Below, in pieces: positions 3,787 through 22,550 of a stretch of DNA of 34,881 nucleotides. The stretch's first letter is position 1, and the number at the start of each line of letters is the position of its first letter. The position numbers were made by a program, and so were the translations under genes. The notes beneath the pieces were generated by a model. The model saw only the letters and a list, made by a program, of their open reading frames with translations, was not told where the DNA came from and searched no databases. The stretch covers positions 1 through 34,881 of the forward strand of contig NZ_QVMV01000015.1 of NCBI RefSeq assembly GCF_003417465.1. Direction: 5' to 3'. The DNA comes from Wenzhouxiangella sp. 15190. Lineage in GTDB: Bacteria; Pseudomonadota; Gammaproteobacteria; Xanthomonadales; Wenzhouxiangellaceae.

Positions 3787-4041
3787 GTTGTTCGTATTGT
3801 CCCGGCCAGTGTGTGATCCGACCGCGAAGACTTCAGTAAGTTTTGGGTTGGTCGATACGAAACGCGGGTGCTCTTGATCTCCAAGCGCTGAATGAGGTGC
3901 TCGAATTTTCAAATTCGAAGCACCAAATCACAAACAAATCCGAATGACCGAAATTTGAATGCCCGAAACAGGTCCACATCCGTAGTCGATAGACACATGC
4001 GCGGCGCCGTTCACGGCCCGCGCCGTGCCCCCAACGCTGCC
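3787..4041. other. Intergenic region mlaF-hslU
   Basis: This 255-bp gap lies between the 3' end of hslU and the 5' end of mlaF, both on the minus strand. It holds the mlaF promoter region next to 3786 and a repeat array (3896-3970, listed separately). No convincing gene was seen. A clear intrinsic terminator with a T-run for hslU was not found, so the hairpin in the repeat may serve that role. Confidence 0.5.
3896..3970. repeat. Heptamer-type repeat with hairpin (array A)
   Basis: A hairpin of 13/14 bases (arms 3896-3908 and 3911-3924, one bulged base, 2-base loop) is followed by degenerate 7-base units such as CGAAGCA, CCAAATC, ACAAACA, CGAATGA and CGAAATT. The 29 bases at 3916-3944 match 3916-like sequence at 6037-6065 (array B) in 25 of 29 positions and in the same orientation. 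The hslVU operon is therefore bracketed by two related arrays. Function unknown; a terminator or mRNA-end stabiliser role is inference. Confidence 0.7.
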
Positions 4042-5382
4042 TTACAAGATATAACGGCTCAAATCCTCATTTCCTGCCAGGTCCTTGAGCGATCGGTCGA
4101 CGTAGTCGGCGTCGATGACGACCTTTTCGCTGGAGCGATCCGGAGCGGAATAGGAAATATCCTCGAGCAGGCGCTCCAGAACCGTATGCAGACGCCGCGC
4201 GCCGATGTTCTCGGTCGACTCGTTGACTGAAAAGCTGATCTCGGCCAGGCGCGTTATGGCGTCTTCGGTGAACTCGAGCTCGACGCCCTCGGTGGCCAGC
4301 AGTGCGGTGTACTGCTCGGTCAGGCAGGCGTCCGGCTCGGTCAGGATGCGCTTGAAGTCGTCGACCGCCAGCGCCCGCAATTCGACGCGAATGGGCAGGC
4401 GCCCCTGCAACTCGGGCACCAGGTCCGACGGTTTGGAAACATGAAAGGCGCCCGAGGCGATGAAGAGCATGTGGTCGGTGCTGACCGGGCCGTAGCGCGT
4501 GTTGACGGTGGCGCCCTCGACCAGTGGCAGCAGGTCGCGTTGCACGCCCTCGCGCGAGACTTCGCCGGAGCCGCCGCCTTCGGCGCGGCGCGCAACCTTG
4601 TCGATCTCGTCGATGAACACGATGCCGTGCTGCTCGGCCGTCTGCAGGGCCTGCTGCTTGACCTCTTCTTCGTTGATCATGCGCGCGGCTTCTTCTTCGA
4701 CCAGCACCGGGATGGCGTCCTTGACCTTCATGCGGCGTTTCTGCTTGCGCTGGCCGGACATGTTGGAAAACATCTGCTGGAGCTGGTTGGTCATCTCCTC
4801 CATGCCCGGCGGCGCCATGATCTCCACGCCCAGGTTCATGTCGAGGTCGATTTCGATCTCGCGATCGTTGAAATCGCCGTCGAGCAGCTTCTGCATCATC
4901 TTCCGCCGGGTTTCCGAAGAAGTTTCGACGGTTTCTTCGGGGGCGTTGGAAAAACCCGAGCTTTGCTGACGCGGCAACATGATGTCGAGTACGCGTTCGA
5001 TAGCGGCATCCTCGGCGCGTGAGCGCACCTTGGTCATGGCTTCGTCTCGGGCGAGTTTGTAGGCCACTTCGGTAAGATCGCGCACGATCGACTCGACGTC
5101 CTTGCCGACGTAGCCGACCTCGGTGAACTTGGTTGCCTCGACCTTGATGAAGGGCGCTTTTGCCAGGGTTGCCAGGCGGCGGGCGATCTCGGTCTTGCCC
5201 ACCCCGGTGGGACCGATCATCAGGATATTCTTGGGCGTGATTTCCGGCTGCAGTTTTTCGTCGACCTGCATCCGGCGCCAGCGGTTTCTCAGGGCAATGG
5301 CCACGGCGCGCTTGGCGGCGGCCTGGCCGATGATGTGCCGGTCCAGTTCCTGGACGATTTCACGGGGTGTCATCTGGGACAT
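4042..5382 (-). CDS. hslU: HslU, ATPase of the HslVU protease
   Basis: AAA+ unfoldase that feeds substrates into the HslV peptidase (ATP-dependent two-component protease in the cytosol). The 446-residue protein has Walker A GPTGVGKT (57-64), pore loop GYVGKD (90-95), an intermediate I-domain (about 110-240), Walker B IVFIDE (254-259) and the sensor/C-domain. The C-terminal tail SRYIL corresponds to the residues that dock into HslV. It starts 3 bp after the hslV stop, so the pair is cotranscribed with hslV first. Length is normal. Confidence 0.97.
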
Positions 5383-5385
5383 TGT

Positions 5386-5943
5386 TTAATGGCCTTCGGC
5401 TGAACTGGTTTCGAGCGTTTCGACAGTGAAATTCTGGTTCGTGTAGATGCAGACTTCGCCGGCGATCGTCAACGCCTCCCGGCAAATGGTTTCGGCATCC
5501 AGATCGGTGTGGCGCTGCAGTGCGCGGGCGGCAGACTGGGCGAAGGGGCCGCCGGAGCCGATCGCGATCAAGCCTTCCTCGGGCTCGATCACGTCACCGT
5601 TTCCGGAGATGATCAGCGAGGCTTCCTGGTCCGCGACGGCCAACAGGGCTTCGAGGCGGCGCAGCAGGCGGTCGGTGCGCCAGTCCTTCGCCAGTTCGAC
5701 AGCGGCCCGGGTGAGGTGGCCGGAATGCATTTCCAGCTTGCTCTCGAAACGCTCGAACAGGGTGAAGGCGTCGGCCGTGGCGCCGGCGAAGCCGGCCAGA
5801 ACCTGGCCCTTGTAAAGCCTTCTGACCTTGCGCGCGTTGGATTTCATGACGGTGTTGCCGAGCGTGACCTGCCCGTCACCGGCAATCACCACCTGGTCGC
5901 CGCGCCGGACCGAAATGATGGTCGTGCCGCGATACTGTTCCAT
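5386..5943 (-). CDS. hslV: HslV, proteasome-like peptidase
   Basis: Peptidase subunit of HslVU, related to proteasome beta subunits, 185 residues. The nucleophile is the first Thr of TTIISVRRG; here it is residue 7, so the six residues MEQYRG must be removed, rather than only Met as in E. coli. Longer N termini of this kind occur in Lysobacterales HslV. Conserved blocks [30 protein letters not shown] and AIGSGGPFA are present. The start at 5943 was chosen as the closest ATG to the mature Thr; the upstream in-frame extension translates intergenic repeat DNA. Confidence 0.96.
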
Positions 5944-6022
5944 GCTTCGACTCGCTGCCAATGGGTGAGGAAACAACATGGGGATTAAGCGGGTGGAAGG
6001 CAATGAACCCACGCGAGGCCTC

Positions 6023-6147
6023 TCAAATCCGAAATCCGAAGCACCAAATCCGAAACAAATATGAAGCACCAAATTCGAAACGGCACCCGTTTTGGTTTTT
6101 CGGATTTCGTGCTTGTTTCGTATTTCGATATTCGAATTTCGAATTTA
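6023..6147. repeat. Inverted heptamer array (array B), xerC-hslV gap
   Basis: The left arm (6023-6057) reads as five 7-base units: TCAAATC, CGAAATC, CGAAGCA, CCAAATC, CGAAACA. The right arm (6099-6147) carries the same kind of unit on the minus strand (CGAAATT, CGAATAT, CGAAATA, CGAAACA). Arms pair over 6030-6040 with 6099-6109 (11/11) and 6044-6048 with 6091-6095. A tip hairpin AAACGG-CAC-CCGTTT lies at 6078-6092. The xerC stop codon (6145-6147) is the outer end of the right arm. The rest of the 201-bp gap (5944-6022) holds the hslV upstream region with no recognised site. Confidence 0.8.
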
Positions 6148-7068
6148 ATCGTCGGATTGGTTCTCCGAGTTGTTCCGCTGTTTTTTGGCTCTCGGATGCG
6201 TCTCGTCATACACCTTCGCCAGGTGCTGGAAGTCCAGGTGGGTGTAGATCTGGGTGGTGGTCAGGTTGGCGTGGCCGAGCAGTTCCTGGACGGCGCGCAG
6301 GTCGCCGGAGGACTCGAGGATGTGTGAGGCGAACGAGTGACGCAATTGATGGGGGTGGACGTTCTGGTCGAGACCCTGCCGCTGTGACCAATAGGCGACG
6401 CGTTTCTGGATGGCGCGCACGCCCAGGGGCCGCCCCTTGAGACTGGTAAAAACGCGCGATTGATCCACGCCGGCGGTGCTGGTGTGGATACGTCGCCATT
6501 GATTCAGCGCCCGCACGGCGTGCCGGCCGACCGGGACGACCCGCTCGCGCCGGCCCTTGCCGAGAACGCGAACCAGGCCGTCGGCCAGGTCGAGCTGTTG
6601 CCAGGTCAGGCCGGCCAGTTCACTCACGCGCAGGCCCGAGGCGTAAAAGAGTTCGAGCACGGCCCGATCACGGGTGGCCAGTTCGTCTTCTTCGGGAATG
6701 TTGAGCAATGCCAGGACCTGATCGACATCGAGTACTTCCGGCAGCTTGCGCCGCACCTTCGGCGCGCGCACGCCCTGGCTGGGATCGCCGTCGATAATGC
6801 GTTCGCGTCGAAGATAGCGAAACAGACGCCTCAGACCCGAAAGGCGGCGCTGAACGCTTCGCGGGCTCAACCCGCGCCGGTGCTCGCTGGCGGCGAAGCT
6901 GCGCACATCGGCCTGCCCGAGAGATTCGATTTCCGTGATGTCGTGCTTGCGGCACCAATCAATGAGGCGCTCGAGATCACGCCGGTAGGCATCGATGGTC
7001 GCCGGGCTGAGTCCCGCCTCGTCAGCGGCGTGGGCAAGAAAGGCGGAAACGGCCGCCTGGACGTTCAT
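6145..7068 (-). CDS. xerC: XerC tyrosine recombinase
   Basis: Site-specific recombinase that acts with XerD at dif to resolve chromosome dimers. The 307-residue protein has the N-terminal SAM-like core-binding domain (1-95) and the C-terminal catalytic domain. Catalytic residues are visible: Arg147 (GLRVSEL), Lys171, His240 and Arg243 (HQLRHS), His266 (LLGHAN) and nucleophile Tyr275 (TQIYTHL). The neighbours DUF484 and dapF match the conserved dapF-DUF484-xerC housekeeping order, so this is XerC rather than a phage or integron integrase. The stop codon TAA coincides with the edge of array B. Confidence 0.95.
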   Translation of the reverse strand: MNVQAAVSAFLAHAADEAGLSPATIDAYRRDLERLIDWCRKHDITEIESLGQADVRSFAASEHRRGLSPRSVQRRLSGLRRLFRYLRRERIIDGDPSQGVRAPKVRRKLPEVLDVDQVLALLNIPEEDELATRDRAVLELFYASGLRVSELAGLTWQQLDLADGLVRVLGKGRRERVVPVGRHAVRALNQWRRIHTSTAGVDQSRVFTSLKGRPLGVRAIQKRVAYWSQRQGLDQNVHPHQLRHSFASHILESSGDLRAVQELLGHANLTTTQIYTHLDFQHLAKVYDETHPRAKKQRNNSENQSDD

Positions 7069-7077
7069 GTCAGGCGC

Positions 7078-7758
7078 TCAGGCGCGCTTGCGTTCGTCGC
7101 CGCGGTCCTGCTCAAGCCGGTGCCGGATGGTCGTGCCCAGCAGTTCGAGGAACAGGGTGCCCATATTGGGATGGAATCGCTCGGCGGACTCGGATCCGAT
7201 TGCGAGCAGGCCCACGCCGTTGATCGGCACCAGGGCGGCCGAACCTATGTCCTCGTGCCGGCTGGGGAAAAGGACCTCGAGCTTGGCGCGAGTGAAGCGT
7301 CCGAATTCGATGTTTCCCTGCTCGAGCAGGTTTTCAAACCATTCGGGCACGCCGGATTCGTGAAGCGTTACTGCGGCGATCTTGTCCAGGTCCTCGTGGC
7401 CTTCGAGCAGATGCAGCCGGACACTGCGTGCATCGAAGTCACCAGCCAGGCGGTCGATCAGTCGCTCGATGAATTCACCCGCCGTACGGGTGGTCATCAC
7501 CTCCAGGGTGAGTTGGTGCAGGCGTTGCATCAATCGCTCGTTTTCCCCGGCAATGCCGGCCAGGGTGTCGAGCTGGGCGTGCAGTTGATGGTTTTCCCGG
7601 CGCAGGCGGGAAACCTGGACCTCGATCAGCGAACTCGCGTCCGTCTCGTGCGGCAGCTGGAGTTGTTCGAGGACTTCCGGATGGCGTTCGAAAAAGTCTG
7701 GGTTGGACGCCAGCCACTCGATGACATCGTCTTCGTTCAGCTTGTTTGCGTCGGACAT
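7078..7758 (-). CDS. DUF484 family protein
   Basis: Conserved protein of unknown biochemical role that lies between dapF and xerC in many gammaproteobacteria. The 226 residues show an N-terminal helical motif (VIEWLASNPDFFERHPEVL, residues 12-30), a coiled-coil stretch (about 48-90) and a GAF-like C-terminal domain (about 90-215). The gene starts inside the dapF 3' end (22-bp overlap), with GGAG eight bases before its ATG, and ends 9 bp before xerC. The family call is secure; a link to chromosome segregation is only suggested by its position. Confidence 0.92.
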   Translation of the reverse strand: MSDANKLNEDDVIEWLASNPDFFERHPEVLEQLQLPHETDASSLIEVQVSRLRRENHQLHAQLDTLAGIAGENERLMQRLHQLTLEVMTTRTAGEFIERLIDRLAGDFDARSVRLHLLEGHEDLDKIAAVTLHESGVPEWFENLLEQGNIEFGRFTRAKLEVLFPSRHEDIGSAALVPINGVGLLAIGSESAERFHPNMGTLFLELLGTTIRHRLEQDRGDERKRA

Positions 7759-8597
7759 GATATGACTCCTTCAAACACTTGGCGGGCGGGTCCGGTGGTG
7801 AGCACCGGCTGTCCCGGTCCGAGCCAATTTACCACAAGCGTTCCACCCGGCTGTACGACTTCGACGGGGTTTTCGACCCGATCGAGGCTCAAGAGTATCG
7901 CCGCGGCGGCACAGGCGCCGCTGCCGCAGGCGCGGGTGGGTCCGGCGCCGCGCTCGAAAACTCGCAAGCGGATACGCCGGGGCGATTCGACCATCGCGAG
8001 ACCCACGTTGGCGCCGTGCGTCAGCGCGGGATGTTGTCCGAGCGCCCGACCGATGTGTTCCAGTCGCCCGGCCTCGGGCGGGCGGTCATCGATCAGCAGC
8101 AAATGCGGGTTGCCCATGGAGGCGCCGTAGACGCTCACTTTTTCTCCGCTGACGGTGAACTGCCGTGGAAAACCTTCCGCTCCGGACAGGCCGACTGCCG
8201 TGGGCGAGAAATCCGGTACCCCCAGCGTAGCGCTGATTTCATCGTCGGAGTGGTAGTGCGCCTCGACGGTGCCCGCCGCGGTGGCCAGGCGAACCTTTCC
8301 CTCGAGCCCGTCGTGGCGGGACAGCCACAGGGCGACGGCCCGCATGCCGTTGCCGCATTGTTCGGCCTCGCTCCCGTCGCCGTTGCGGATTTCGACCCGG
8401 CAATGGTGTGTATCGTCGTCACTCGGGCGAAGCACCAACAGTTGATCAAAGCCGACCCCGCGATGCCGATCGGCCCATTGCCGGACAATCTCGCCCGGCA
8501 GGTTCACCGAGCGTTCGCGGGCGTCGATCAGCATGAAGTCGTTGCCCAGCGCTTCGAGCTTGTCGAAGGCCAGGTTTCCGATTACCCGCTCGGGCAT
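7737..8597 (-). CDS. dapF: Diaminopimelate epimerase DapF
   Basis: Converts LL- to meso-diaminopimelate for lysine and peptidoglycan synthesis, without a cofactor, by a two-cysteine mechanism. In the 286-residue product Cys81 lies in EQCGNGMRA and Cys224 in RACGSGACA, the two catalytic bases. The start at 8597 gives the usual FDKLEALGNDFMLID N terminus and leaves a 4-bp gap to the lptM stop; the longer frame to 8678 overlaps lptM. Order lptM-dapF-DUF484-xerC is typical. Confidence 0.96.
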   Translation of the reverse strand: MPERVIGNLAFDKLEALGNDFMLIDARERSVNLPGEIVRQWADRHRGVGFDQLLVLRPSDDDTHHCRVEIRNGDGSEAEQCGNGMRAVALWLSRHDGLEGKVRLATAAGTVEAHYHSDDEISATLGVPDFSPTAVGLSGAEGFPRQFTVSGEKVSVYGASMGNPHLLLIDDRPPEAGRLEHIGRALGQHPALTHGANVGLAMVESPRRIRLRVFERGAGPTRACGSGACAAAAILLSLDRVENPVEVVQPGGTLVVNWLGPGQPVLTTGPARQVFEGVISCPTQTS

Positions 8598-8601
8598 GTC
8601 C

Positions 8602-8778
8602 TCAAGCTCCCGACGAGTCGGACTGCTTGCCGGCTTCTTCATCCTCGTCGGCTTCCGAAGGAGCCGTCGCCGGTTCATCCTCGGGCAGGTACAGATCGCC
8701 CTTGAGTCCGCAGCCTGTGTTTACAAGCACTGCAATGACCAACAGGACGACCGCGAGGACGGTTAAACTTGCACGCAT
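8602..8778 (-). CDS. lptM: LptM-type (YifL) small lipoprotein
   Basis: Tiny lipoprotein of 58 residues that in E. coli assists oxidative maturation of the LPS translocon LptD. A hydrophobic signal is followed by the lipobox and the hallmark NTGCGLKGDLYLP, with lipidated Cys23. After that comes a low-complexity acidic tail rich in E, D and S. The ATG at 8778 shares two bases with the ATG of the divergent esterase gene. A GGAG six bases upstream of its start lies inside the esterase coding region. Assignment rests on the CGLKGxLYLP motif and its place before dapF. Confidence 0.9.
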   Translation of the reverse strand: MRASLTVLAVVLLVIAVLVNTGCGLKGDLYLPEDEPATAPSEADEDEEAGKQSDSSGA

Positions 8779-9457
8779 GAACGACTCCACTGACCTGAAA
8801 CTTGAACGCGTGGTGCTCGAGACCGGCGAAAACCCGGAACACGCCGTGGTATGGCTGCACGGGCTGGGAGCCGACGGGCACGATTTCGAGCCGATTGTAC
8901 CGCAGCTCTCCAGCGCCTCTCGGCGGCCGGTGCGCTTTATCTTCCCGCATGCGCCGGTGCGGCCGGTCACCATCAACGCGGGCATGTCCATGCGCGCCTG
9001 GTACGACATTCTCGGCGCCGAAATCGACCGCGATCAGGATACGGCGGGCATTCACGCCTCGCTCGGCATGATCGACGCACTGCTCGACGATGAAATTGCC
9101 GCCGGCATCGAGCCGGGCAATATCGTTCTCGCCGGTTTCTCCCAGGGCGGTGCCGTCGCGTTGCGCTGCGGCCTGGCGCGTTCCGAACCCCTGAGTGGCC
9201 TGATCGGGCTTTCCACCTACCTGCTCGAAGCCGACCGGCTGGAAGCCTGGGCCGGCAAGGACGCGCGCCGGATGCCCTTGTTCATGGGCCACGGCGACCA
9301 CGATCCGATCGTGCCGGTGGACCTGGGCGAGGCCAGCGCGAAGCGGCTGCGCTCGGCCGGTTTTGAGGTGACTTGGCAGACCTGGCGCATGCCGCATGCC
9401 GTCTGTCCCGAAGAAATCGCTGCCCTCGATCGCTGGCTGGAGCAGAGATTGTCGTGA
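8777..9457 (+). CDS. Alpha/beta-hydrolase carboxylesterase
   Basis: Serine esterase of the phospholipase/carboxylesterase (acyl-protein thioesterase-like, YpfH/EstB) family, 226 residues, probably cytoplasmic with no signal peptide. The catalytic triad is visible: Ser122 in GFSQGG, Asp176 in GDHDPIVP and His207 in MPHAVC. The oxyanion segment LHGLGADGHDFEP is at residues 28-40. Natural substrate cannot be read from the sequence. The chosen ATG gives the family N terminus, although no good ribosome site precedes it. A TAAACT box seven bases upstream could be the -10 of a leaderless mRNA. Translation overlaps the next gene by GTGA. Confidence 0.88.
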   Translation: MNDSTDLKLERVVLETGENPEHAVVWLHGLGADGHDFEPIVPQLSSASRRPVRFIFPHAPVRPVTINAGMSMRAWYDILGAEIDRDQDTAGIHASLGMIDALLDDEIAAGIEPGNIVLAGFSQGGAVALRCGLARSEPLSGLIGLSTYLLEADRLEAWAGKDARRMPLFMGHGDHDPIVPVDLGEASAKRLRSAGFEVTWQTWRMPHAVCPEEIAALDRWLEQRLS

Positions 9458-10176
9458 GCGACATGCGCGTGCTCATCGTCGACGACGAGCAACCGGCCGC
9501 AGATCGCCTGGCCCGTCTGATCGACGAGTTGCCCACGGTCGAGGTCAGCGCCATCGTCATGCAGGCCGAGCAGGTGGTCGATCGTTGCCGCGAGCTGGTG
9601 CCGGATGTCGTTTTGCTGGATGTTGAAATGCCCGGGCTGGACGGGATCGAGCTGGCGAGCGAGTTGCGTCGCCTGAATCCTCGGCCCGCCGTGATTTTCG
9701 TCACTGCCTTCGAGCAGTATGCCGTCGATGCATTCGAACTGGCGGCCGTGGATTACCTGGTCAAGCCGGTACGCGCCGCGCGGCTGGGCCGTGCGCTGGA
9801 GCGCGCGCGCAATCGGCCGATCGGCCCCGGCACCACGCTGCGGACGCGGCTGGGCGATCGTGTGTTGTCCATCCCCGTCGTCGATATTCGCGCCCTCGTT
9901 GCGGAGGACAAGTACACTGTCGTGCATTTCGACAAGGGCGAGGCGCTGGTCGACGACTCGCTTGTGAGCCTTGAGCAACGTTTCAATCGTCAGTTCATCC
10001 GCATTCATCGGAAGGCCCTGGTGGCCCGTCGCTATCTGCGCGGTCTGTTCCGCGATGAACAGGGACAGGAGCGGGTCGAACTGGACGGCAGTGATTGTCA
10101 GCCACCCGTTAGCCGTCGCAACCTGTCGCTGGTGCGCCAGGTGCTCAATGGCCGTGAACTTGGAGAGAATCCATGA
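9454..10176 (+). CDS. LytTR-family response regulator (AlgR-like)
   Basis: Two-component regulator with an N-terminal receiver (about residues 4-120; acidic DDE at 10-12, phospho-acceptor Asp56 in LLDVEMPG, Lys104 in LVKPV) and a C-terminal LytTR DNA-binding domain (about 140-235). The GTG at 9454 overlaps the esterase stop and has GGAG 11 bases upstream; ATG at 9463 is an alternative start that would remove three residues. In pseudomonads algR precedes hemC and follows the kinase gene fimS/algZ. Here hemC follows (4-bp overlap) but an esterase stands where the kinase would be, so the partner kinase must be encoded elsewhere. Confidence 0.9.
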   Translation: MSDMRVLIVDDEQPAADRLARLIDELPTVEVSAIVMQAEQVVDRCRELVPDVVLLDVEMPGLDGIELASELRRLNPRPAVIFVTAFEQYAVDAFELAAVDYLVKPVRAARLGRALERARNRPIGPGTTLRTRLGDRVLSIPVVDIRALVAEDKYTVVHFDKGEALVDDSLVSLEQRFNRQFIRIHRKALVARRYLRGLFRDEQGQERVELDGSDCQPPVSRRNLSLVRQVLNGRELGENP

Positions 10177-12132: not shown

Positions 12133-12186
12133 TTTGCGTTAATCTCGACTGATATTTGCAAGCGGGCTGCGTTTCCCGAAAACCCG

Positions 12187-13419: not shown

Positions 13420-14612
13420 AGCGGTTGTTGATCATCGTTCTGGCGGCGGTCGCCCTGGTGGCGACGGCTTTTATTGCACCGTATCTGGCGGAAGATCCCG
13501 GTCACGTTCAACTCGAGATCGGGAGTTGGCGCATCGAGATGTCGGTGCTCGTGCTGGTCGGTGCCGTCCTGCTGGTCTGGATTGCGCTGTCCGTGCTCGT
13601 GGGCCTGTTTCGCCTGCCGTCTCGCGTCATCAGAAAAGCGCGTGAGCATCGCTCGCGACGGCAGCTCGAGAAAGGGTTCCTGGCATTGACCGAAGGGGAT
13701 TGGCCGGCCGCCGAACGTGCCCTGCAGAAATCCCTGCGCTATCGCGATTCGACGGCTGGCTATCTTGCTGCCGCGCGTGCGGCTCAGGGGCGTGGTGACA
13801 ACAGTGGACGGGACCGCTGGCTTGAGCATGCCGACAGCCGTTTCGGACACCGTCATTTCGTGACCGGGCTGGCGCGCGCCCGGCTACTGGCAGCGGAGGG
13901 TCGGAGCGAGGAAGCCATCGCCCTGCTCGAGAAACTGCACCTGAAAAAGCCGCGACATGAAGGTGTGCTTCGCTTGCTGCTGGAGAACTATCAGGATCTG
14001 GGTCGGTGGCGGGACCTGCGCTTGCTGACCCCCGCCCTGCGCCGCGCCGGCGTTGTCGATCGTGAGCGCGCCACGGAGCTGACCGTGCTCGCGGCCCGGC
14101 GCGAACTGGATGCCAGCAGCGACATCGATCAGCTCGAGTCCAGCTGGAAGGAATTGCCGCGCAAACTGCGCGGGCGCCGCGAGCTGGTGTCCGCCTATGC
14201 CCGGCGGGCCGCCGACCTGGGCCGCACCGCCCGGGCATCGGGCCTGCTCGAGCACCACCTTGCAGGAGATCCCGACGACGAATTGTTGTCGCTGTACGCG
14301 TCTTCCGACGAAGGTGAACTCACGCATCGCATCAAGCAGTGCGAAAAGTGGCTGGAATCGCATCCCGATCATATCGGGTTGCAACAGACCCTGGGACTGC
14401 TTTATCTCGACGATCGCCAGTATGATCGAGCGCGGGATTGCCTGGAGAGAGTGGTCCGGGAACGGCCCAACAGCCGCGCCTACGCCGCACTCGGCCGCGT
14501 TCTCGATCGCGCGGGCAAGCTCGAAGCGGCGGCCCAGTGTTACCGGAATGCCCTGCGGCTTCGGGATGGCCGCGGCGCGGAGCCGCTGCCGCCGCCATCG
14601 GAGCCTGTCTGA
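13416..14612 (+). CDS. hemY: HemY-like TPR membrane protein
   Basis: The 398-residue protein has two N-terminal transmembrane helices (about 3-24 and 43-66) and a long chain of tetratricopeptide-like helices facing the cytoplasm or periplasm. The last repeats (QTLGLLYLDDRQYDRARDCLERV and YAALGRVLDRAGKLEAAAQCY) are clear. This is the proteobacterial HemY family, unrelated to the Bacillus protoporphyrinogen oxidase of the same name. Start codon is GTG inside the hemX stop. Its stop lies four bases before the first unit of array C. Confidence 0.92.
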   Translation: MKRLLIIVLAAVALVATAFIAPYLAEDPGHVQLEIGSWRIEMSVLVLVGAVLLVWIALSVLVGLFRLPSRVIRKAREHRSRRQLEKGFLALTEGDWPAAERALQKSLRYRDSTAGYLAAARAAQGRGDNSGRDRWLEHADSRFGHRHFVTGLARARLLAAEGRSEEAIALLEKLHLKKPRHEGVLRLLLENYQDLGRWRDLRLLTPALRRAGVVDRERATELTVLAARRELDASSDIDQLESSWKELPRKLRGRRELVSAYARRAADLGRTARASGLLEHHLAGDPDDELLSLYASSDEGELTHRIKQCEKWLESHPDHIGLQQTLGLLYLDDRQYDRARDCLERVVRERPNSRAYAALGRVLDRAGKLEAAAQCYRNALRLRDGRGAEPLPPPSEPV

Positions 14613-14615
14613 ATT

Positions 14616-14718
14616 GAGTGTGAAGTGTTAAGTGTAAAGTGTGAAGTAAAACAAAGCGTTAACTGATAGTCTTTGCTTGGCACCTTCACACTTCACACTT
14701 CACACTTCACACTTCAAA
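14616..14718. repeat. Inverted heptamer array (array C), hemY/egtD convergent gap
   Basis: The left arm (14619-14646) has four TGTGAAG-type units, two of them with one change. The right arm has four perfect CTTCACA units (14684-14711) plus CTTCAAA. Arms pair in 26 of 28 positions across a 37-base loop that contains CAAAG (14652-14656) and CTTTG (14671-14675). It fills the space between two convergent genes, and the last two codons and stop of egtD lie inside the right arm. A bidirectional terminator role is likely by position; the mechanism is inference. Confidence 0.9.
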
Positions 14719-15672
14719 CCCACCGCCCTCGGCGGTGAGCCAGTGCATCGAAAACAACCCATCCGGATCGAACCAGACCTTCTCCGATGTCAATCCGGCC
14801 TCGGCGGCCAGTTTCCGGAAGGAATCCACCGAGTACTTGTGGCTGTTCTCGGTATGAATCGATTCGCCTTGTTCGAACTCGAAAACATGATCGTCGATGA
14901 CAATCCGGGTCGGGTGTTGCGCAACCAGGTGCATCTCGATGCGCTCGCGGGATTCGTTGTAGCGCGCTTCATGGGCGAATGCGCCGAGGTCGACTTGCGC
15001 ATCGAGTTCACGTCTCACACGCTCGAGCAGATTGCGGTTGAATGCCGCCGTGATGCCGCCGGCATCGTCGTAGGCCGCGATCAGGCGTTCGGCCGGTTTG
15101 ACCAGGTCGACCCCGATCAGAAGCGCGCCCCCGGTGCCGGCAATACCGCTCAGTCGCGCGAGAAAGTCGATTGCCTGGTGTCGCTCGAAATTGCTGATGG
15201 TCGAGCCGGGGAAGTAGACGATTCTTCGCCTGGCCGCCGGATCGAGCAACAGCTCGCTATCGGCGATCGGCTGCGTGTAGTCGGCCTGAACCGGCCGGAT
15301 TTCGATATCGGGAAAGGCCGATTCGAGATCACGGGTCGATTGCGCCAGTGCCGCGTCCGAGATTTCGATGGGTGTGTAGGTGCGTGGCGATTCCAGGCTG
15401 GCGAGTAACCGGCGCGTTTTTATGCCGGCTCCGGATCCCAGTTCGATGACGTGTGCGTCGGGGCCGATCATCGATGCGATCTCATCGAGGTGCGCCTCGT
15501 GCAGGGCCAGATCCGCCCGGGTCACGTAGTATTCCGGCGTCTCGCAGATCTGCTCGAACAGTGCGGATCCGCTGGCGTCGTAGAGATACTTGCAGGGAAT
15601 CGATCGGGGCTCGGCCGAAAGGCCGGCGAGAACGTCTTCGCGGAACCGCTCGCTCTCCGAATCCAGGCTCAT
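14707..15672 (-). CDS. egtD: L-histidine N-alpha-methyltransferase EgtD
   Basis: SAM-dependent enzyme that trimethylates histidine to hercynine, the first step of ergothioneine synthesis. The 321-residue product has CKYLYDASGSALFEQI and TPEYYVTRAD (about 27-54), SAM-binding VIELGSGAG (75-83), YTPIEIS and YFPGSTISNF, all typical of EgtD (DUF2260 family). The start at 15672 overlaps the egtB stop by 4 bp; the frame to 15771 runs into egtB. The last residues EV and the stop codon are encoded by the CTTCACA repeat of array C, so the repeat has set the exact C terminus. Confidence 0.95.
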   Translation of the reverse strand: MSLDSESERFREDVLAGLSAEPRSIPCKYLYDASGSALFEQICETPEYYVTRADLALHEAHLDEIASMIGPDAHVIELGSGAGIKTRRLLASLESPRTYTPIEISDAALAQSTRDLESAFPDIEIRPVQADYTQPIADSELLLDPAARRRIVYFPGSTISNFERHQAIDFLARLSGIAGTGGALLIGVDLVKPAERLIAAYDDAGGITAAFNRNLLERVRRELDAQVDLGAFAHEARYNESRERIEMHLVAQHPTRIVIDDHVFEFEQGESIHTENSHKYSVDSFRKLAAEAGLTSEKVWFDPDGLFSMHWLTAEGGGFEV

Positions 15673-17021
15673 CGGATGCGCGCGAGGCGGATGCCGCTGA
15701 ACTGCCAGCGATCGGGCGGATAGAAAAAGTTGCGGTAAGTGGCGCGAACATGGCCTTCCGGCGTGGCGCAACTGCCACCACGCAGGACCATCTGGTTGGC
15801 CATGAACTTGCCGTTGTATTCACCCACGGCGCCGGGAGGCGCCTTGAAGCCGGGGTAGGGTGCGTAGCTCGAGGCCGTCCACTCCCAGACATTGCCGAAC
15901 AGGCCCGCGGCGGTATCGGGCGGTGTATCGGGATTGACGGCACGGGGATGGAATCGGCCATCCTCGGCAAAGGGTCCGCTTCGATCCGTGGTGGCCGTGG
16001 CGGCGATTTCCCACTCCGCCTCGGTAGGCAGACGGGCGCCGGCCCACTGCGCATAGGCGCAAGCCTCGTAGAAGCTTACATGCGCCAGGGTTTCGAGTGG
16101 ATCAACCCGGCGCAGGCCGCCCAGCGTATACAGCCACCACTGGCCACCTTCGTCCTGCTGCCAGTACATGGGTGCCCGTGTGCCGGTCTCCCGCAACCAG
16201 GCCCAGCCGTCGGATAGCCAGAGATCCGGGTTGTCGTAGCCGCCGTCCTGCATGAAGGCAAGAAATTCACCGCAGGTCACGGGCCGTGAAGCCAGTTCGA
16301 AGGCTTCCACCACTTCCCGGTGGCGCGGCATCTCGTTGTCGAAACAGAAACAGCCGTCTTCCATTGCGCCGATTTCGGCAATGCGCTCGTCGAAACCAAG
16401 CCAGTGCAGTGGCGGTTCCCGGCCTTCGCAGGGCGGCGGGCATTCCGTCCAGGCCGGATACATCGGGTTGTGTGAAAAGCCGTGCTTGAGGTCGGTGGCA
16501 ATGAGTTCCTGATGCTGCTGTTCATGGTTGAGCCCCAGTCGGATGATGTCCGTGAGCTCGGTCCATTGCGCGTTAGCGGCATTTTCGATCAGTGCGAGCA
16601 TGCCGTCATCGACTGCACGTCGGTAGCGGTCCACCTCGTCGACGTTCGGTCGTGATATCAGGCCTCGCTGCGGTCGTGGATACTGGTCACCCACGCCGTT
16701 GTAGTAGGAATTGAACAGATAACGCCAGGTTGGATCGGTCTCGCGCCAGTTCGGGTTGCGGGGCTTGATCACGAAAGTCTCGAAAAACCAGGTGGTGTGG
16801 GCGCGATGCCACTTGACCGGGCTGGCACAGGGCATGGACTGCAGGTTCTGGTCCTCGGGAGAAAGCATTTCCGCCAGCCTTTCGGTTGTCGCCCGCACGG
16901 CGAGAAAGTCCTCGATGAGTTGCTCGCGCGTAAGGGATTCGATGCCCTGCCTGTTGCTCAGCGGCACGGCATTGCTCCGGTGTGTTCCCCGAGTTCGCAT
17001 CTCGGTCGAGGTTGTAACCAT
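15669..17021 (-). CDS. egtB: Ergothioneine synthase EgtB
   Basis: Non-haem iron sulfoxide synthase that joins hercynine to a cysteine donor using O2. In the 450-residue protein a DinB-like domain gives likely iron ligands His75 (HRAH), His166 and His170 (HEQQHQE). A C-terminal formylglycine-enzyme-like domain (about 200-450) has GNVWEWTAS and RGGSCATPEGHVRATYRNFF. OvoA is less likely because a fused methyltransferase domain is absent and EgtD follows. No egtA, egtC or egtE is in the window, so the sulfur donor (cysteine or gamma-glutamylcysteine) is open. Its ATG shares one base with the pilR stop (TGATG); ATG at 17000 is an alternative. Confidence 0.93.
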   Translation of the reverse strand: MVTTSTEMRTRGTHRSNAVPLSNRQGIESLTREQLIEDFLAVRATTERLAEMLSPEDQNLQSMPCASPVKWHRAHTTWFFETFVIKPRNPNWRETDPTWRYLFNSYYNGVGDQYPRPQRGLISRPNVDEVDRYRRAVDDGMLALIENAANAQWTELTDIIRLGLNHEQQHQELIATDLKHGFSHNPMYPAWTECPPPCEGREPPLHWLGFDERIAEIGAMEDGCFCFDNEMPRHREVVEAFELASRPVTCGEFLAFMQDGGYDNPDLWLSDGWAWLRETGTRAPMYWQQDEGGQWWLYTLGGLRRVDPLETLAHVSFYEACAYAQWAGARLPTEAEWEIAATATTDRSGPFAEDGRFHPRAVNPDTPPDTAAGLFGNVWEWTASSYAPYPGFKAPPGAVGEYNGKFMANQMVLRGGSCATPEGHVRATYRNFFYPPDRWQFSGIRLARIR

Positions 17022-18427
17022 CAGTCGATATCGTACTTCTTGATCTTGTAGCGGAATGAACGGAACGAAATGCCGAGTTGCCGGGCAGCTTCGGTCTTGT
17101 TGTACTTGGCGTCGACCAGCGCCTTTTCCAGGATGCGTTTTTCGATGTCTTCCATGTAATCGTCCAGGCTCCGGTTCTGCGGCGGACTGACATCGACCTC
17201 TTCGTCCTCGATAACCGATTGCTCGATGTTGAGATCCTCGACCGTGATCTCGTCGTCTTCACACAAGGTCACGGCCCGCTGGAGAATATTGACCAGCTCT
17301 CGCACGTTACCCGAGAACTTGTGATTCTGGAGTTTATCCATGGCGGCCGTGCTGAGCTTTCGCGGCGGCTCGCCCCACTGCTCGCCGATCACGCCCAGGA
17401 AGTGCTCGGCCAGCAGGCGGATATCGCCCCGACGATCGCGCAGGCTGGGCATGGGCAGATCGATGACATTGAGGCGGTAGTAGAGATCGTTGCGGAAGTC
17501 ACCCGACTCGACAAGCGGCTTGAGCGGCTTGTGCGTGGCCGAGAGTATGCGAACGTCGATCTTGAGTTCCTCGCGCCCGCCGATGGGGCGCACGGTCTTT
17601 TCCTGAATGACGCGCAGCAGCTTGACCTGCATGTTCAGCGGCAGGTCGGCCACTTCGTCGAGAAACAGTGTGCCGCGATTGGCCGCCTGGAAGAGGCCTT
17701 CCTTGTCGGTATCGGCACCGGTGAAGCTGCCTTTCATGTGTCCAAAGAATTCGCTTTCCATCAGTTCGGATGGAATGGCCCCGCAGTTGACGGCCACGAA
17801 CGGCTTTTCCGCGCGCGGGCCGAGGTCATGGATCAGGCGGGCAGCCAGTTCCTTGCCGGTGCCGGATTCGCCGCTGACGAGAACCGGTGCCTGGCTTCGG
17901 GCCAGTTTGGTAATCGTCTGGCGGACCCGGTCCATGGCTTGCGAGCGGCCCACAAGGCGCTGCCGCAGCAAGCTCTCTCCGCGTGGCGTACCGGCAGTGG
18001 AATGTTCCGCGGGTTTTTGCTCGTCGGGCTTGCTCGCCTGTTGTTCGGTATCGTCTTCGCGCAGCTTGAGGGCGGTGCGAACCATGTTGCGCAGCACTTC
18101 CAGGTCGACCGGCTTGGACACGAAATCGAAAGCGCCGTACTTGAGCGCGGTCACCGCATCATCGACCTTGCCGTAGGCGGTGATCATGGCAACCGGCAAG
18201 TTCGGATGATCGCGCGAGATTTCCTTGATCAGGCTCAGCCCGTTGCCATCGGGCAGGCGCATGTCAGTCAGGCAGAGAGCATAGTCGGTGCCGTTGGCCA
18301 GCAGTCGGCGCGCACTGGACAGATCTTCGGCGGTGTCGACGTCCAGCCCCATGCGGGTGAGGGTCATGTCGAGCAATTCCCTCAGATCCGGTTCATCGTC
18401 TACCACCAAAGCGCGCAGTTCGCTCAT
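17021..18427 (-). CDS. pilR: PilR-type sigma-54 response regulator
   Basis: NtrC-family activator of 468 residues. Receiver: Asp55 phospho-acceptor (CLTDMRLPDG) and Lys105. AAA+ domain: Walker A GESGTGKE (186-193) and sigma-54 contact loop GSFTGA (233-238), with Ser as in PilR of Pseudomonas rather than the more common Ala. The C-terminal Fis-type helix-turn-helix (about 440-465, NKTEAARQLGISFRSFRYKIKK) matches PilR closely. It likely acts with PilS to switch on sigma-54-dependent pilin transcription. It is coupled to egtB by a one-base overlap, so phospho-relay genes and ergothioneine genes are probably on one transcript. Confidence 0.93.
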   Translation of the reverse strand: MSELRALVVDDEPDLRELLDMTLTRMGLDVDTAEDLSSARRLLANGTDYALCLTDMRLPDGNGLSLIKEISRDHPNLPVAMITAYGKVDDAVTALKYGAFDFVSKPVDLEVLRNMVRTALKLREDDTEQQASKPDEQKPAEHSTAGTPRGESLLRQRLVGRSQAMDRVRQTITKLARSQAPVLVSGESGTGKELAARLIHDLGPRAEKPFVAVNCGAIPSELMESEFFGHMKGSFTGADTDKEGLFQAANRGTLFLDEVADLPLNMQVKLLRVIQEKTVRPIGGREELKIDVRILSATHKPLKPLVESGDFRNDLYYRLNVIDLPMPSLRDRRGDIRLLAEHFLGVIGEQWGEPPRKLSTAAMDKLQNHKFSGNVRELVNILQRAVTLCEDDEITVEDLNIEQSVIEDEEVDVSPPQNRSLDDYMEDIEKRILEKALVDAKYNKTEAARQLGISFRSFRYKIKKYDID

Positions 18428-18458
18428 TGCCGTCCTCGAAGTTCAGCTTCTGATTGGG

Positions 18459-20111
18459 TCAACCCGTGGCCCGTTTCGCCCGGGCCGGCTGGCTGTCCCT
18501 GTTTTCCGTCATTTCTCCGGATTCCGGTCGCCGAAGCAGAATGCGGAAGCAGGCGCCCCGGTTGGGGACCTGAACATATTCCAGCGGGGCCTGATTGGCA
18601 TCGCAAAGCTGCCTCGCCAGGTAAAGGCCCAGGCCAGATCCCTGTTTGTGGGTCGTGAAGAATGGTTCGAATACTTGTGACCTCTTTTCCAGCGGGATTC
18701 CGGGACCATTGTCGATGATATCCAGCGCGATTTCACGATGCCCGCGGATCGGGCTGACCCGCAGGGTGATCACCACCTCCTGTCCGTCGACGCTGGCGTG
18801 CTTGAGGGCATTGTCCATCAGGTTCCAGACGGCCTGATTGAGCTGGCTGGAATCGATCATCACCATGATCGAGGCGGAGGGGATTTCCAGCTTGACGCGA
18901 CCGGCATCAAGCTTGTGATAGCGTCGAAAGTCGCTGGCCAGTTTGCGGATCCAGCTGATCAGGTTGACCGACTCGATGCGGGCACGCTCTCGGCGCGAGA
19001 GCTTCAGGACATTTTCGACAATATCATTCATTCGGGTGGCATGATTGAGCATCATGCCGAGCAGCTTTCGGTCGGCCTTGTTTAGATCTTCGGATTCATT
19101 GAGAAGCTGGGCGGCGTGGCTGAGTGCACCGAGGGGGTTTCGGATTTCGTGCGCAATGCTGGCTGAAAGCCGGGCGAGCGATGCCTGGGCCAGGTCGCGG
19201 GCTCGACGGGTCAGCACCGAGGTGTCCTCGAGAAAGATCAGGGTCGCCTCGGAATCGTCCACCCCGGGCATGGTCAGCATGGTGGGTACCACGGCCGACT
19301 GCGTGGATTGCAGCAGCAAGCCTTCGTCCATGACCTTGCCGGTCTTGCGCCAGCGCTCCAGGCGGTCGGCAAGCGGCGGCGCTATGCTCCGGAGGTTGCG
19401 GTCGCTGACCGGTGGGTTGCCCAGCAAGTACCACGCCGCTTCGTTCATCTGGCGAATCCGGTTGTGCGAGTCGACCACCAGGACGCCGGAGCGCAATTTG
19501 TGAATGATGAGCTCGTTGATGTGGCCGAGATTGGCCAGATCGAGGCCGCGGCGTTCAGCCAAAAGCTTGTACTCGCGTCCCCAGCGTCCCAGCAGGGAGG
19601 CGCCGACGGCGATACCGAAGGCGCCCGCGCCATACAGCGCGGCCTGAAACAACGAGCTCGCCTCCAGGGAACCCCGATGGTTGAGCCAGGCATCCAGGAG
19701 CAGGCCCAGGGTCACCAGGGACGCGAACAGCAGCGTGGTTCGGGCGTCCAGTATCAGCCCGGTAATGCCGACGGTGAATAGCAGCAGGATGACCAGGGCA
19801 CTTTCGATGCCGCCGAAAGCATGCAGGATCAGGCCGATCAGGATCAGGTCGCTGGCCAGGGAGAACGACGCGAGTTCGGCGACTTCCATGCGGCGCCGCA
19901 GGTGCAGCACCATGAAACCGACGGCTCCGACGGCATAGGTCAGGGCCGCCGCCTGCGCCAGAAAGAGTCTGTAGCCTTCGAGTTCGGAAGCCGGCGGGCC
20001 GAAAACGGCACCCAGCGCGGCGAACGACACAAGCAGCCGAAAGGCATTGAGGTAGTGCAGGGCGCGGCCTACAGTCTGTTCGTCGCCAACCAGTGTGCCG
20101 AACGCTCTCAA
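18459..20111 (-). CDS. pilS: PilS-type sensor histidine kinase
   Basis: Membrane sensor kinase of 550 residues: six hydrophobic helices in residues 1-175 with short loops, a PAS-like domain (about 200-300), phospho-acceptor His321 in SIAHEIRNPLGALSHA, and the ATPase boxes DNGPGIP and GSGLGLYLA. This is the PilS architecture, and the gene precedes pilR by 31 bp. The start codon is TTG with GGAG eight bases upstream; no better ATG exists before the first helix. In Pseudomonas PilS senses pilin in the membrane; the signal here is assumed, not shown. Confidence 0.92.
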   Translation of the reverse strand: MRAFGTLVGDEQTVGRALHYLNAFRLLVSFAALGAVFGPPASELEGYRLFLAQAAALTYAVGAVGFMVLHLRRRMEVAELASFSLASDLILIGLILHAFGGIESALVILLLFTVGITGLILDARTTLLFASLVTLGLLLDAWLNHRGSLEASSLFQAALYGAGAFGIAVGASLLGRWGREYKLLAERRGLDLANLGHINELIIHKLRSGVLVVDSHNRIRQMNEAAWYLLGNPPVSDRNLRSIAPPLADRLERWRKTGKVMDEGLLLQSTQSAVVPTMLTMPGVDDSEATLIFLEDTSVLTRRARDLAQASLARLSASIAHEIRNPLGALSHAAQLLNESEDLNKADRKLLGMMLNHATRMNDIVENVLKLSRRERARIESVNLISWIRKLASDFRRYHKLDAGRVKLEIPSASIMVMIDSSQLNQAVWNLMDNALKHASVDGQEVVITLRVSPIRGHREIALDIIDNGPGIPLEKRSQVFEPFFTTHKQGSGLGLYLARQLCDANQAPLEYVQVPNRGACFRILLRRPESGEMTENRDSQPARAKRATG

Positions 20112-20408
20112 GACTTGTTCTCCAGGTTCAGCGAAGCCGCGGTCAACACCGGCTCTTGGGGCATTCTGCTACGTCCCTTCGCGATGTTTACTGACCCTGA
20201 GTATACTACTCCCCGAGCTTACCGGGCCGCCGTCTGCCCCGGACGTCGCCTTTGCCTGTTGGCCTCGTAATTCCGCTCTGCGGGGGCTTTCGGTTTGATA
20301 ATTGGGGCGGCTTGATCCAGAATACGCCGGTTTAGGCGCTTCCGGCCAGCCGGCCGGGTGCTGGACTTTCAGGATCGAATTCATCCACCAAAGAACGGGT
20401 TTCCAAGC
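20112..20408. promoter_or_regulatory. Divergent pilS/sucC promoter region
   Basis: This 297-bp gap must hold the promoters of the pilSR-egtBD and sucCD units. A self-complementary GTATAC at 20201-20206 supplies a TATACT -10-like hexamer on each strand, but no matching -35 was found at 16-18 bp on either side. The sequence near sucC is otherwise GC-rich, with no gene and no clear ribosome site beyond a weak purine stretch. Confidence 0.4.
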
Positions 20409-21572
20409 ATGAATTTTCATGAGTATCAGGCCAAGGAGCTGTTCGAGCAGTACGGCATTCCGGTGCCGCGCGGACAGTTGGCAACCACCGCTGAGGAGGC
20501 CGTGAGCGCGGCCAAGGCGATTGGCGGCAGTGAATGGGTCATCAAGGCCCAGGTCCATGCCGGTGGGCGCGGCAAGGCCGGCGGCGTCAAGCTGGTCTCC
20601 AGCCTTGACGAGGTTCGCGATGCCGCCGACAAGATGCTCGGCATGAACATCGAGACCTACCAGACGGGCGGTCGTGCGCTGCCGGTCAACTCGGTGCTGG
20701 TTGCAGAGGCCACCGACATCAAGCAGGAGCTCTACCTGGGCGCCCTGGTCGATCGCGCACAGAAGTCGGTCGTGTTCATGGGCTCGGCCGCCGGGGGCGT
20801 CGACATTGAGCAGGTCGCTTCCGAAACGCCCGAAAAGATCATCACTGCGCCGGTGGACACCGCGGCCGGCTTCATGCCTTACCAGGCGCGCCACATCGGC
20901 TTCCGCATGGGACTCGACGCCAAACAGGTGCGCCAGTTGATCAAGATCATGGATGGACTCTATCGCCTGTTCATGGAAAAGGACATCAGCCTCATCGAGG
21001 TCAATCCGCTGATCATCGACGGCAACGGCGACCTGAGTGCGCTCGATGCCAAGCTCAACGCCGACGACAACGCGCTTTTCCGGCACGCCGACATTGCCGA
21101 AATGCGCGACGAGTCGCAGGAGGATCCGACCGAGCTGGCTGCCAGCAAGCACGACCTCAACTACGTCACGCTCGACGGCAATATCGCCTGCATGGTCAAT
21201 GGCGCCGGCCTGGCGATGGCGACCATGGACGTCATCAAGCTCGCCGGCGGCGAGCCGGCCAATTTCCTCGACGTCGGCGGCGGCACCAATGCCGAGCGTG
21301 TCAAGGAGGCGTTCAAGCTCATCCTGGAGGGCGATAACGTCAAGGCCATCCTGGTCAATATCTTCGGCGGCATCGTGCGTTGCGACGCGATCGCCGAGGG
21401 CATCATCAACGCGGTCAAGGACGTCGAGATGAATGTTCCGCTGGTTGTCCGCCTAGAGGGCACCAACGTGGATAAGGGCAAGGAACTGCTCGCCAATAGC
21501 GGCTTCGACATCATCCCCGCCGACGATCTCAATGACGGTGCGCGCAAGGCCGTGGAAGCGGCCGGCGCCTGA
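20409..21572 (+). CDS. sucC: Succinyl-CoA synthetase beta subunit
   Basis: TCA-cycle enzyme that couples succinyl-CoA cleavage to NDP phosphorylation; the beta subunit binds nucleotide and succinate. The 387-residue ATP-grasp protein begins [20 protein letters not shown], has the glycine-rich [12 protein letters not shown] (51-62), and a C-terminal ligase domain with [11 protein letters not shown] and [10 protein letters not shown]. The start at 20409 matches the family N terminus; an upstream in-frame Met at 20358 adds 17 unrelated residues. sucD follows after 11 bp. No sucAB is adjacent in the window. Confidence 0.97.
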
Positions 21573-21583
21573 AGGAATCTGTA

Positions 21584-22456
21584 ATGAGTGTATTGATCGA
21601 CAAGAAGACCAAAGTCATCTGCCAGGGCTTTACCGGAAGCCAGGGCACTTTCCATTCCGAACAGGCCATTGCCTATGGCACGCGCATGGTCGGCGGCGTG
21701 ACGCCGGGCAAGGGCGGTAACGAGCATCTCGGCCTGCCGGTGTTCAACACCGTCGACGAAGCGGTCGAGGAAACCGGTGCCGATGCCTCTATGATCTTCG
21801 TGCCGCCGCCGTTCGCGGCCGACGCCATCCTCGAGGCCGCCGACGCTGGTGTGCGCGTGATCGTTTGCATCACCGAGGGCATCCCGGTGCTCGACATGAT
21901 GCGCGTCAAGGCCGCGCTCAACAATTACGACGATGTGACCCTGATCGGTCCCAATTGCCCGGGCATCATCACGCCCGACGAGTGCAAGATCGGCATCATG
22001 CCGGGCCAGATCCACAAGAAGGGCAAGATCGGCGTCGTTTCCCGTTCGGGCACGCTGACCTACGAGGCGGTCTACCAGACCACCCAGGTGGGCCTGGGCC
22101 AGTCGACCTGCATTGGCATCGGCGGCGACCCGATCCAGGGCATGAACTTCGTCGACTGCCTGTCGCTGTTCGAGGAAGATCCCGAAACCGAGGGCATCAT
22201 CATGGTCGGCGAGATCGGTGGTTCAGCCGAGGAAGAAGCGGCGGAATTCATCGCCGATCGCGTCACCAAGCCGGTGGCCGCCTACATCGCCGGCGTCACC
22301 GCACCCCCGGGCAAACGCATGGGCCATGCCGGCGCCATCATCGCCGGCGGCAAGGGCACGGCCGAGGCCAAGTACGAAGCCCTGAAAGAGGCCGGGGTCA
22401 CCACCGTGCGCTCGCCGGTGGAACTCGGCGACGCCATCGCCGGCCGCCTGAAGTAA
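21584..22456 (+). CDS. sucD: Succinyl-CoA synthetase alpha subunit
   Basis: CoA-binding and phosphohistidine subunit of succinyl-CoA synthetase, 290 residues. The Rossmann domain starts with [20 protein letters not shown]. The active-site His248 sits in [15 protein letters not shown], as in E. coli His246. A GAAGGA ribosome site lies in the short sucC-sucD gap. The stop codon is followed four bases later by array D. Confidence 0.97.
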
Positions 22457-22460
22457 TCTA

Positions 22461-22543
22461 GGGTTCAGGTTTCAGGTTTCAGGTTTCAGGACGAGCGGCG
22501 CTCGGGATTTCCTGAAACCTGAACACTGAACCCTGAAACCTGG
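22461..22543. repeat. Inverted heptamer array (array D), sucD-nadE gap
   Basis: The left arm (22461-22490) holds GGGTTCA and three GGTTTCA units. The right arm (22511-22540) holds TGAAACC, TGAACAC, TGAACCC and TGAAACC. Arms pair in 26 of 30 positions, and the tip is a perfect small hairpin CGAGC-GGC-GCTCG (22492-22504). The array fills nearly the whole 94-bp gap. The nadE ribosome site GGAG (22542-22545) lies directly at the base of the stem, so folding could affect nadE translation or protect the sucCD mRNA end; both are inference. Confidence 0.92.
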
Positions 22544-22550
22544 AGCCTTT

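Follow-up and report, generated by a model that had tools for sequence, protein, structure and literature searches.

The stretch analysed here, referred to below as the window (34,881 nucleotides of contig NZ_QVMV01000015.1 from Wenzhouxiangella sp. 15190), carries hslU, hslV, xerC, a hemY-type gene, egtD, sucD and nadE as neighbours, assigned by NCBIfam, of four intergenic sites built from short repeat units, mostly heptamers. In all likelihood these arrays are the arms of dispersed elements related to the intervening sequences (IVS) of ribosomal RNA (rRNA), whose complete members carry a gene known mainly from rRNA. Its product, the '23S rRNA intervening sequence protein' (PF05635/TIGR02436), is termed IVP in the following. 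By sequence comparison, the window arrays match the terminal arms of short IVP/IVS-type elements, and the data presented below document the anatomy of these elements, their dispersal as read from sequence, the co-variation of arm and protein, and the turnover of sites. In the labels used here, G000 is the source genome, other G numbers are relatives, L denotes a locus and C a contig; SW is the Smith-Waterman score. The four sites are as follows.

3896..3970, plus strand: solo degenerate arm of the CGAAAT family beyond the hslU stop, with no opposed arm (SW 33 to the L170 arm).
6023..6147, no strand assigned: gene-less element of the CGAAAT family, two opposed arms and a tip hairpin, abutting the xerC stop (SW 35 to the L170 arm, 30.5 to the L125 arm).
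14616..14719, no strand assigned: gene-less element of the TGAAGTG family, 4 nt past the hemY stop, with the egtD stop in its right arm (SW 31 to the L293 arm, 26 to the L169 arm).
22460..22548, no strand assigned: gene-less element of the TTTCAGG/TGAAACC family that takes up the greater part of the sucD-nadE gap (SW 29 to the arm of L298, the IVP element of sister species G003).
Period-7 segments at three sites: 6090-6146; 14617-14647 and 14684-14719; 22460-22490 and 22511-22548.

At a score threshold of 14 the window contains these five period-7 segments. In 100 first-order Markov windows the mean number was 0.02 and the highest 1; in the window itself, the remaining lags between 4 and 15 gave 0-3 segments each (lag 14 gave three). 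The opposed-arm heptamer arrays of the initial annotation were thus recovered at 6023-6147, 14616-14718 and 22461-22543, but not at 3896-3970, a single degenerate arm below the period-7 threshold, which nevertheless scores 33 against the L170 arm (maximum of 14.5 in 20 shuffles). The three two-armed sites have inverted repeats able to form a stem, with strong predicted RNA folds (z-scores of -4.2, -7.4 and -7.2, respectively), as had been proposed; the solo arm reaches -3.8. Likewise, the start within 0-4 bases of a stop codon noted there holds for one end of each of the three sites: the xerC stop occupies 6145-6147 and its array ends at 6146, hemY ends at 14612 and the array begins at 14617, and sucD ends at 22456 with the array beginning at 22460. 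The right arm of the hemY/egtD site (14684-14719) includes the stop codon of egtD (14707-14709), which means that this gene takes its last codons from the element. None of the window copies has a PF05635 gene, and they are assigned to IVP elements through their arms alone. An Rfam scan of the window returned no match, which places the sites outside 23S rRNA; they are therefore not IVS in the strict sense.

For all four window sites the match is to the inverted arms of IVP-encoding elements, and each of the five PF05635 genes detected in the source genome sits between opposed arms of short units, with a different unit in every case and a period of 7 in four elements and 8 in one.

L166, contig C6: arm unit AGAAAAT/AGTAAAT.
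L167, contig C15: arm unit GTTGGCTG, 8 bases.
L168, contig C22: arm unit TCTGTGG.
L169, contig C22: arm unit TGAAGTG.
L170, contig C39: arm unit CGAAATY.

The proteins P0001, P0003 and P0004 score above both the PF05635 and the TIGR02436 cut-offs. A genome-wide scan, as the initial annotation had called for, gave 70 matches to YGAA(NNNYGAA)x3 at 38 merged sites in 3.13 Mb; the reversed pattern gave 63, a figure unusable as a null because TGAAGTG arrays match the reversed pattern as well. The source-genome sites comprise the unit families TGAAGTG, TTTCAGG/TGAAACC and CGAAATY, together with AGTAAAT/AGAAAAT and ACCACAG, which lie beyond the reach of the pattern. Among the 45 longest pairs listed, CGAAAT copies from unrelated places in the genome are 67-86% identical over about 140-180 bp, arms and centres included, and copies of a longer element of the TGAAGTG family are 75-83% identical over 163-203 bp; such alignments of arms and centres between unrelated loci identify them as dispersed copies. 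Reference IVP arms are matched by 58 of 60 source-genome array sites and by none of 60 shuffled ones, or by 53 of 55 after removal of three self-matching IVP elements and two overlapping duplicates, although the stretches were picked around pattern matches and 58/60 is not an unbiased genome-wide rate. The matches fall to five of the six references (L166, L168, L169, L170 and L298), and L167 has none. Several draft contigs of the source genome start or end inside heptamer arrays (C6, C9 and C17 at position 1, C29 at its end); assemblies may therefore break at these elements, and element numbers may be underestimated.

The CGAAAT arm is not confined to this lineage. An exact 22-mer taken from it, CGAATATCGAAATCCGAAACAA, was found in at least 112 stretches spread over many phyla, for which our own estimate by chance is about 0.03; the phyla named in the record titles are, among others, Desulfobacterota, Patescibacteria, Planctomycetota, Omnitrophota, Verrucomicrobia and Acidobacteriota. 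Eighty of these loci were read, and 40 genomes were tested via 41 of them: PF05635 was found in 39 of the 40, whereas none of 14 control genomes carried it and, among 61 relatives, 29 did. Three of the 80 loci have the IVP gene itself 36-58 bp inward of the motif, always in one orientation, and an IVP gene within the cross-phylum arm was accordingly rejected as a rule. Elements whose two ends could be set by simple patterns run mostly from AAATYCGAA to TTCGRATTT (61 rows).

Complete elements were assembled from relatives, the source genome included (34 loci of 49 matches), from the 40 genomes with the cross-phylum motif (30 loci, one per genome from a longer list), from plasmids (12 of 36 records), from 40 further stretches chosen by match score and place, independently of arms, and from the arm-motif search (four loci). 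This gave 120 distinct IVPs, 119 of them testable (L288 is too short); left out before the count were L292 and L296 as duplicates, and L198 and L239, which did not come up as distinct open frames, the former being a fragment below the Pfam cut-off with no arms, the latter having an in-frame stop and arms at SW 15. Inverted arms at SW of at least 14 flank 100 of the 119 IVP genes, whereas fake genes placed in these loci had them at 9 of 338 positions; at 16.5 the figures are 90/119 and 0/338. Once the four loci contributed by the arm-motif search are set aside, the count of armed loci is 97 of 115. The best common period is 7 in 78 cases, 14 in 11, 8 in 11 and 9 in three, with 7 or 14 in 9/338 controls. 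A complete element measures about 0.4-0.8 kb (median 492 bp), with a median of 5.3 units per arm (139 arms). The claim of one architecture realised with different units, and of an unusual element, is borne out. The concern that the arrays might be fragments of one known transposon or REP (repetitive extragenic palindromic) family proved half justified: the elements whose arms they form carry a gene family that is known, mainly from rRNA, but the arrays belong to several sequence families.

The element found in a given gap differs between sister species. The sucD-nadE gap was searched in 30 genomes of the genus, of which G004, G010, G014, G020 and G021 were unreadable at this place; G007 and G023 have no element in the gap.

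TTTCAGG hairpins: G000, G003, G016, G008, G025, G013, G022, G019, G002, G005.
TTTACGG, TTTCCGG or TTGACGG types: G027, G009, G011, G028, G015, G017.
GGGACCA arrays: G001, G012.
Hairpin built from units of about 9 bases: G024.
Full IVP element with GTTGCAA/GTTGTCA arms, the PF05635 matches adjoining sucD: G018, G029.
Degenerate hairpins: G026, G006.

In the xerC-hslV gap, too, the units differ between species and several species have no element. It could be argued that the hairpins are 3'-end structures selected by the host, terminators or mRNA stabilisers with no selfish origin, and both their position just past stop codons and their strong folds would suit such a role. However, a consensus scan of the sucD/nadE region (22300-22700) found no terminator-like site, the same gaps are empty in some sister species, and IVP genes reside inside the hairpin, all of which makes a host origin very unlikely; hosts may still put the hairpins to secondary use. 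Local repeat expansion was one of the two readings named in the initial annotation, next to a reader of the core; here the heptamers of every gap would have arisen on the spot, through slippage or strand-switch copying, with no mobile element involved. Perfect tandem runs and variable copy number are in line with this, as is the average likeness of the arms of one site, which exceeds that of arms across species: among 19 sucD-nadE elements (the right arm of the two full IVP elements was not captured) the median arm score is 15 within one element and 8 across elements, the own partner arm being the best of all in three of the 19 (G027, G017 and G012). As an origin, however, local expansion is disfavoured, and we attach only a very small probability to it, since copies from unrelated loci are alike in arms and centre over 140-200 bp, the CGAATATCGAAATCCGAAACAA 22-mer recurs across phyla, the arms enclose genes of a single family in 100 of 119 cases, and the dispersed families include full-length, gene-carrying members. 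As a way of renewing units, by slippage or arm-to-arm copying, it could remain.

Arm and protein were found to co-vary. Arm likeness at SW of at least 13 was seen in 10 of 14 pairs with at least 70% protein identity, in 12.5% of 32 pairs at 60-70%, and in 0.3-0.6% of pairs below 40%; arms alike in reversed polarity were absent among pairs at 50% identity or more. Closely related IVPs thus tend to share a unit, and others differ. Furthermore, IVP genes and YGAA arrays co-occur among relatives (22 of 29 with PF05635, 10 of 32 without, p 0.0008). By our own motif split, IVPs fall into subfamily A (N-I-x-E-G) and subfamily B (G-A-N-Y-x-E-A), with 6 of 100 fitting neither. The strand running into the element has more G than C in 69 of 70 subfamily A members and more A than T in 23 of 24 subfamily B members, and polarity judged by purine excess alone is weaker (85 of 100 inward, 14 outward). 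The shared YGAANNN core proposed earlier did not survive this comparison: the YGAA strand points inward in the TGAAGTG and CGAAAT families and outward in TGAAACC, and YGAA is missing from other arms of the source genome (AGAAAAT, GTTGGCTG, TCTGTGG). As a universal core it was rejected and amounts to a coincidence of the reading strand in three families. What is kept is the spacing and the opposed arms, as had been supposed, together with strand polarity in place of YGAA. Because arm and IVP co-vary, a protein reader of the repeats is plausible. In an alignment of 22 sequences from both subfamilies the residues Q, S, N, E and E are invariant, each being conserved in at least 96% of larger sets, so that IVP possesses a conserved polar site. 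A profile of the 22 IVPs finds 2GSC at E 4e-37 as well as 2RLD, both with five chains; 2GSC was published as an assembly of five four-helix bundles, according to a title cited in PMC10053308.

Two families of enzymes came into question as drivers. REP/RAYT- or IS200-like elements (RAYT, REP-associated tyrosine transposase) would be moved in trans by a hairpin-reading Y1 (HUH) transposase, and the hairpins, the lack of a target duplication and three Y1_Tnp genes in the source genome would fit this. Across 61 genomes, however, Y1_Tnp is unrelated to IVP presence (Fisher p 0.80), and in nine IVP-bearing genomes neither Y1_Tnp nor RVT_1 was found, six of the nine being at least 94% complete; we regard this route as quite unlikely. 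REP elements and bacterial interspersed mosaic elements (BIMEs) with RAYT are likewise intergenic palindromes, but their architecture differs from that of IVP-type elements, which show no Y1_Tnp association. Improbable, too, is a retroelement in which IVP acts in trans as an Avd-like partner of a reverse transcriptase. The idea derives from a statement in PMC10053308 that 2GSC (PF05635) and Avd (4DWL), a protein of diversity-generating retroelements, appear homologous, and one of three IVPs tested does match the Avd model weakly (16.9 bits, cut-off 80). On the other hand, no RVT_1 was found in the source genome, RVT_1 is unrelated to IVP presence in the 61 genomes (p 0.78), and the 22-IVP profile misses 4DWL up to E 10. 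A structural search with an IVP model (pLDDT, the predicted local distance difference test, of 73; four sequences) gave only noise, with no hit at E≤0.001 and 4DWL at E 8. Both enzymes were rejected as drivers on the missing association.

The intergenic elements share their architecture with those in rRNA. One IVP locus among the 20 scanned sits inside 23S (large subunit) rRNA, namely L268 from a plasmid of Azospirillum lipoferum; its IVP gene is bracketed by heptamer arms at 830-865 and 1263-1298. The IVS of Coxiella, as described in PMC4990558, carries tandem heptamers (GACAGAT) upstream of the gene and a 28-bp stem, and IVP genes occur in rRNA insertions of bacteria of the candidate phyla radiation (PMC11270868); taken together, this argues for one architecture of rRNA and intergenic elements. 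The 23S rRNA IVS with an S23p/IVP gene (PMC4990558) thus resemble the present elements in the PF05635 gene, the terminal inverted repeats and the heptamers, whereas the window elements are intergenic and gene-less, and, over the set of loci, the unit differs between lineages. PMC4990558 also recounts the older idea that IVS are remnants of mobile elements. A further parallel is provided by the intergenic heptamers GGGAATC and GGGGA(C/T)T of Xanthomonas and Nostoc, described in PMC4692102 as convergent pairs between aligned genes near stop codons: period 7, position and strand bias, read as G-rich strand inward, all agree. Along these lines, L195 encodes a (partial) IVP between CGGGAATC arms resembling those heptamers. 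In contrast, PMC4692102 states that the Xanthomonas/Nostoc heptamers are generally not found with mobile elements, and a word search of its available text returned none of the terms S23, XCC0516 and four-helix. GGGAATC arrays occur in 3 of 26 genomes searched, one of which has its IVP between GGGAATC arms; a constant pairing of such arrays with a GGGAATC-armed IVP was therefore rejected. The TAACTGA repeats of Beggiatoaceae are also intergenic heptamers, but are direct and mostly situated just upstream of start codons (PMC4679880). Miniature inverted-repeat transposable elements are similarly short, gene-less, dispersed and bounded by inverted ends, with a gene-carrying relative, but differ in that here the ends are tandem heptamers, no transposase was identified and no target duplication was detected. 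A full-text literature search brought up no paper that we recognised as linking intergenic heptamers with IVP genes; preprints and many journals lay outside its reach, and absence is unproven.

A complete element consists of an arm rich in G or A and made of short tandem units (mostly heptamers), the PF05635 gene and the reverse-complement arm; gene-less copies of such arms occur dispersed in the genome, with three of them and one half-copy in the window. Upon transcription of the host operon the arms would pair into a long stem, which RNase III may cut in mRNA by analogy with the excision of IVS from rRNA published for Coxiella and others (PMC4990558); the element would then do little harm between co-directional genes or inside rRNA. 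IVP, with the five-bundle assembly of its relative 2GSC in mind, would recognise the arms of its own lineage and act in trans on full and gene-less copies alike, the DNA chemistry presumably being left to the host or to as yet unrecognised enzymes. Slippage of tandem units and copying from arm to arm could keep opposed arms matched while the unit drifts. Since no associated transposase, reverse transcriptase or target duplication was found, movement is inferred from copies and site turnover.

Several observations weigh against the assignment of the arrays to IVP/IVS-type elements. Neither transposition nor excision was directly seen, and in 60 CGAAAT elements the mean flanking repeat of 2.17 did not stand out from shuffled controls (mean 2.02, maximum 2.38), although element ends are fuzzy and a short target duplication could be missed. 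By the SW test 19 of 119 IVP loci lack inverted arms, two of which (L173 and L180) are flanked by a pair of arrays that point the same way. Other control draws reached maxima of 34.5 (n=315), 15.5 (n=235) and 23 (n=417, 99% point 16.5), because fake genes can fall on other elements. Four of the 14 close protein pairs have no common arms, and YGAA arrays occur in 10 of 32 relatives without PF05635 but are missing from 7 of the 29 that possess it. The Coxiella protein was argued in PMC4990558 to be probably not made in vivo. Finally, TTTCAGG arms accompany proteins only 23-27% identical, which weakens a strict one-to-one recognition. The proteins concerned, L308 and L310, are IVP-like, with NSxPAQLAEKN replacing the NIAEG motif, and their arms resemble those of L298, by convergence or by arm exchange.

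More tentatively, and with rather less confidence than an even chance would warrant, these elements might constitute a bacteria-wide selfish class with self-renewing heptamer ends. A pentameric IVP ring would read its own unit, perhaps one heptamer per subunit in view of the median of 5.3 units per arm, according to a recognition code in which protein and unit evolve together, and the heptamers of Xanthomonas, Nostoc and other bacteria, the rRNA IVS and many unnamed intergenic hairpins would form one system, moved without a known transposase or reverse transcriptase. The assignment to IVP elements provides a candidate origin for bacterial intergenic heptamer repeats, so far described without one, and a genomic context for a widespread protein family of unknown function; two old questions, the mobility of rRNA intervening sequences and the role of the IVP protein, become testable. 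The turnover in the sucD-nadE gap between sister species, with several units and a gene-carrying copy, also bears on the interpretation of intergenic hairpins, of repeats and of breaks in assemblies.

On plasmids of Anabaena sp. 90 (L262) and Pseudanabaena galeata (L265), a heptamer-armed IVP element lies between cas6 and cas4, a placement that may explain the 23S_rRNA_IVP genes reported in cas loci (PMC3936711). Repeats with units of about 9-10 bases, CACGGAAAG, ACGCAGATTT and ACACAGATGA, were noted in the sucD-nadE gap of L201, after hslU in L329 and near position 12285 of L049, and possibly belong to the same class with longer units.

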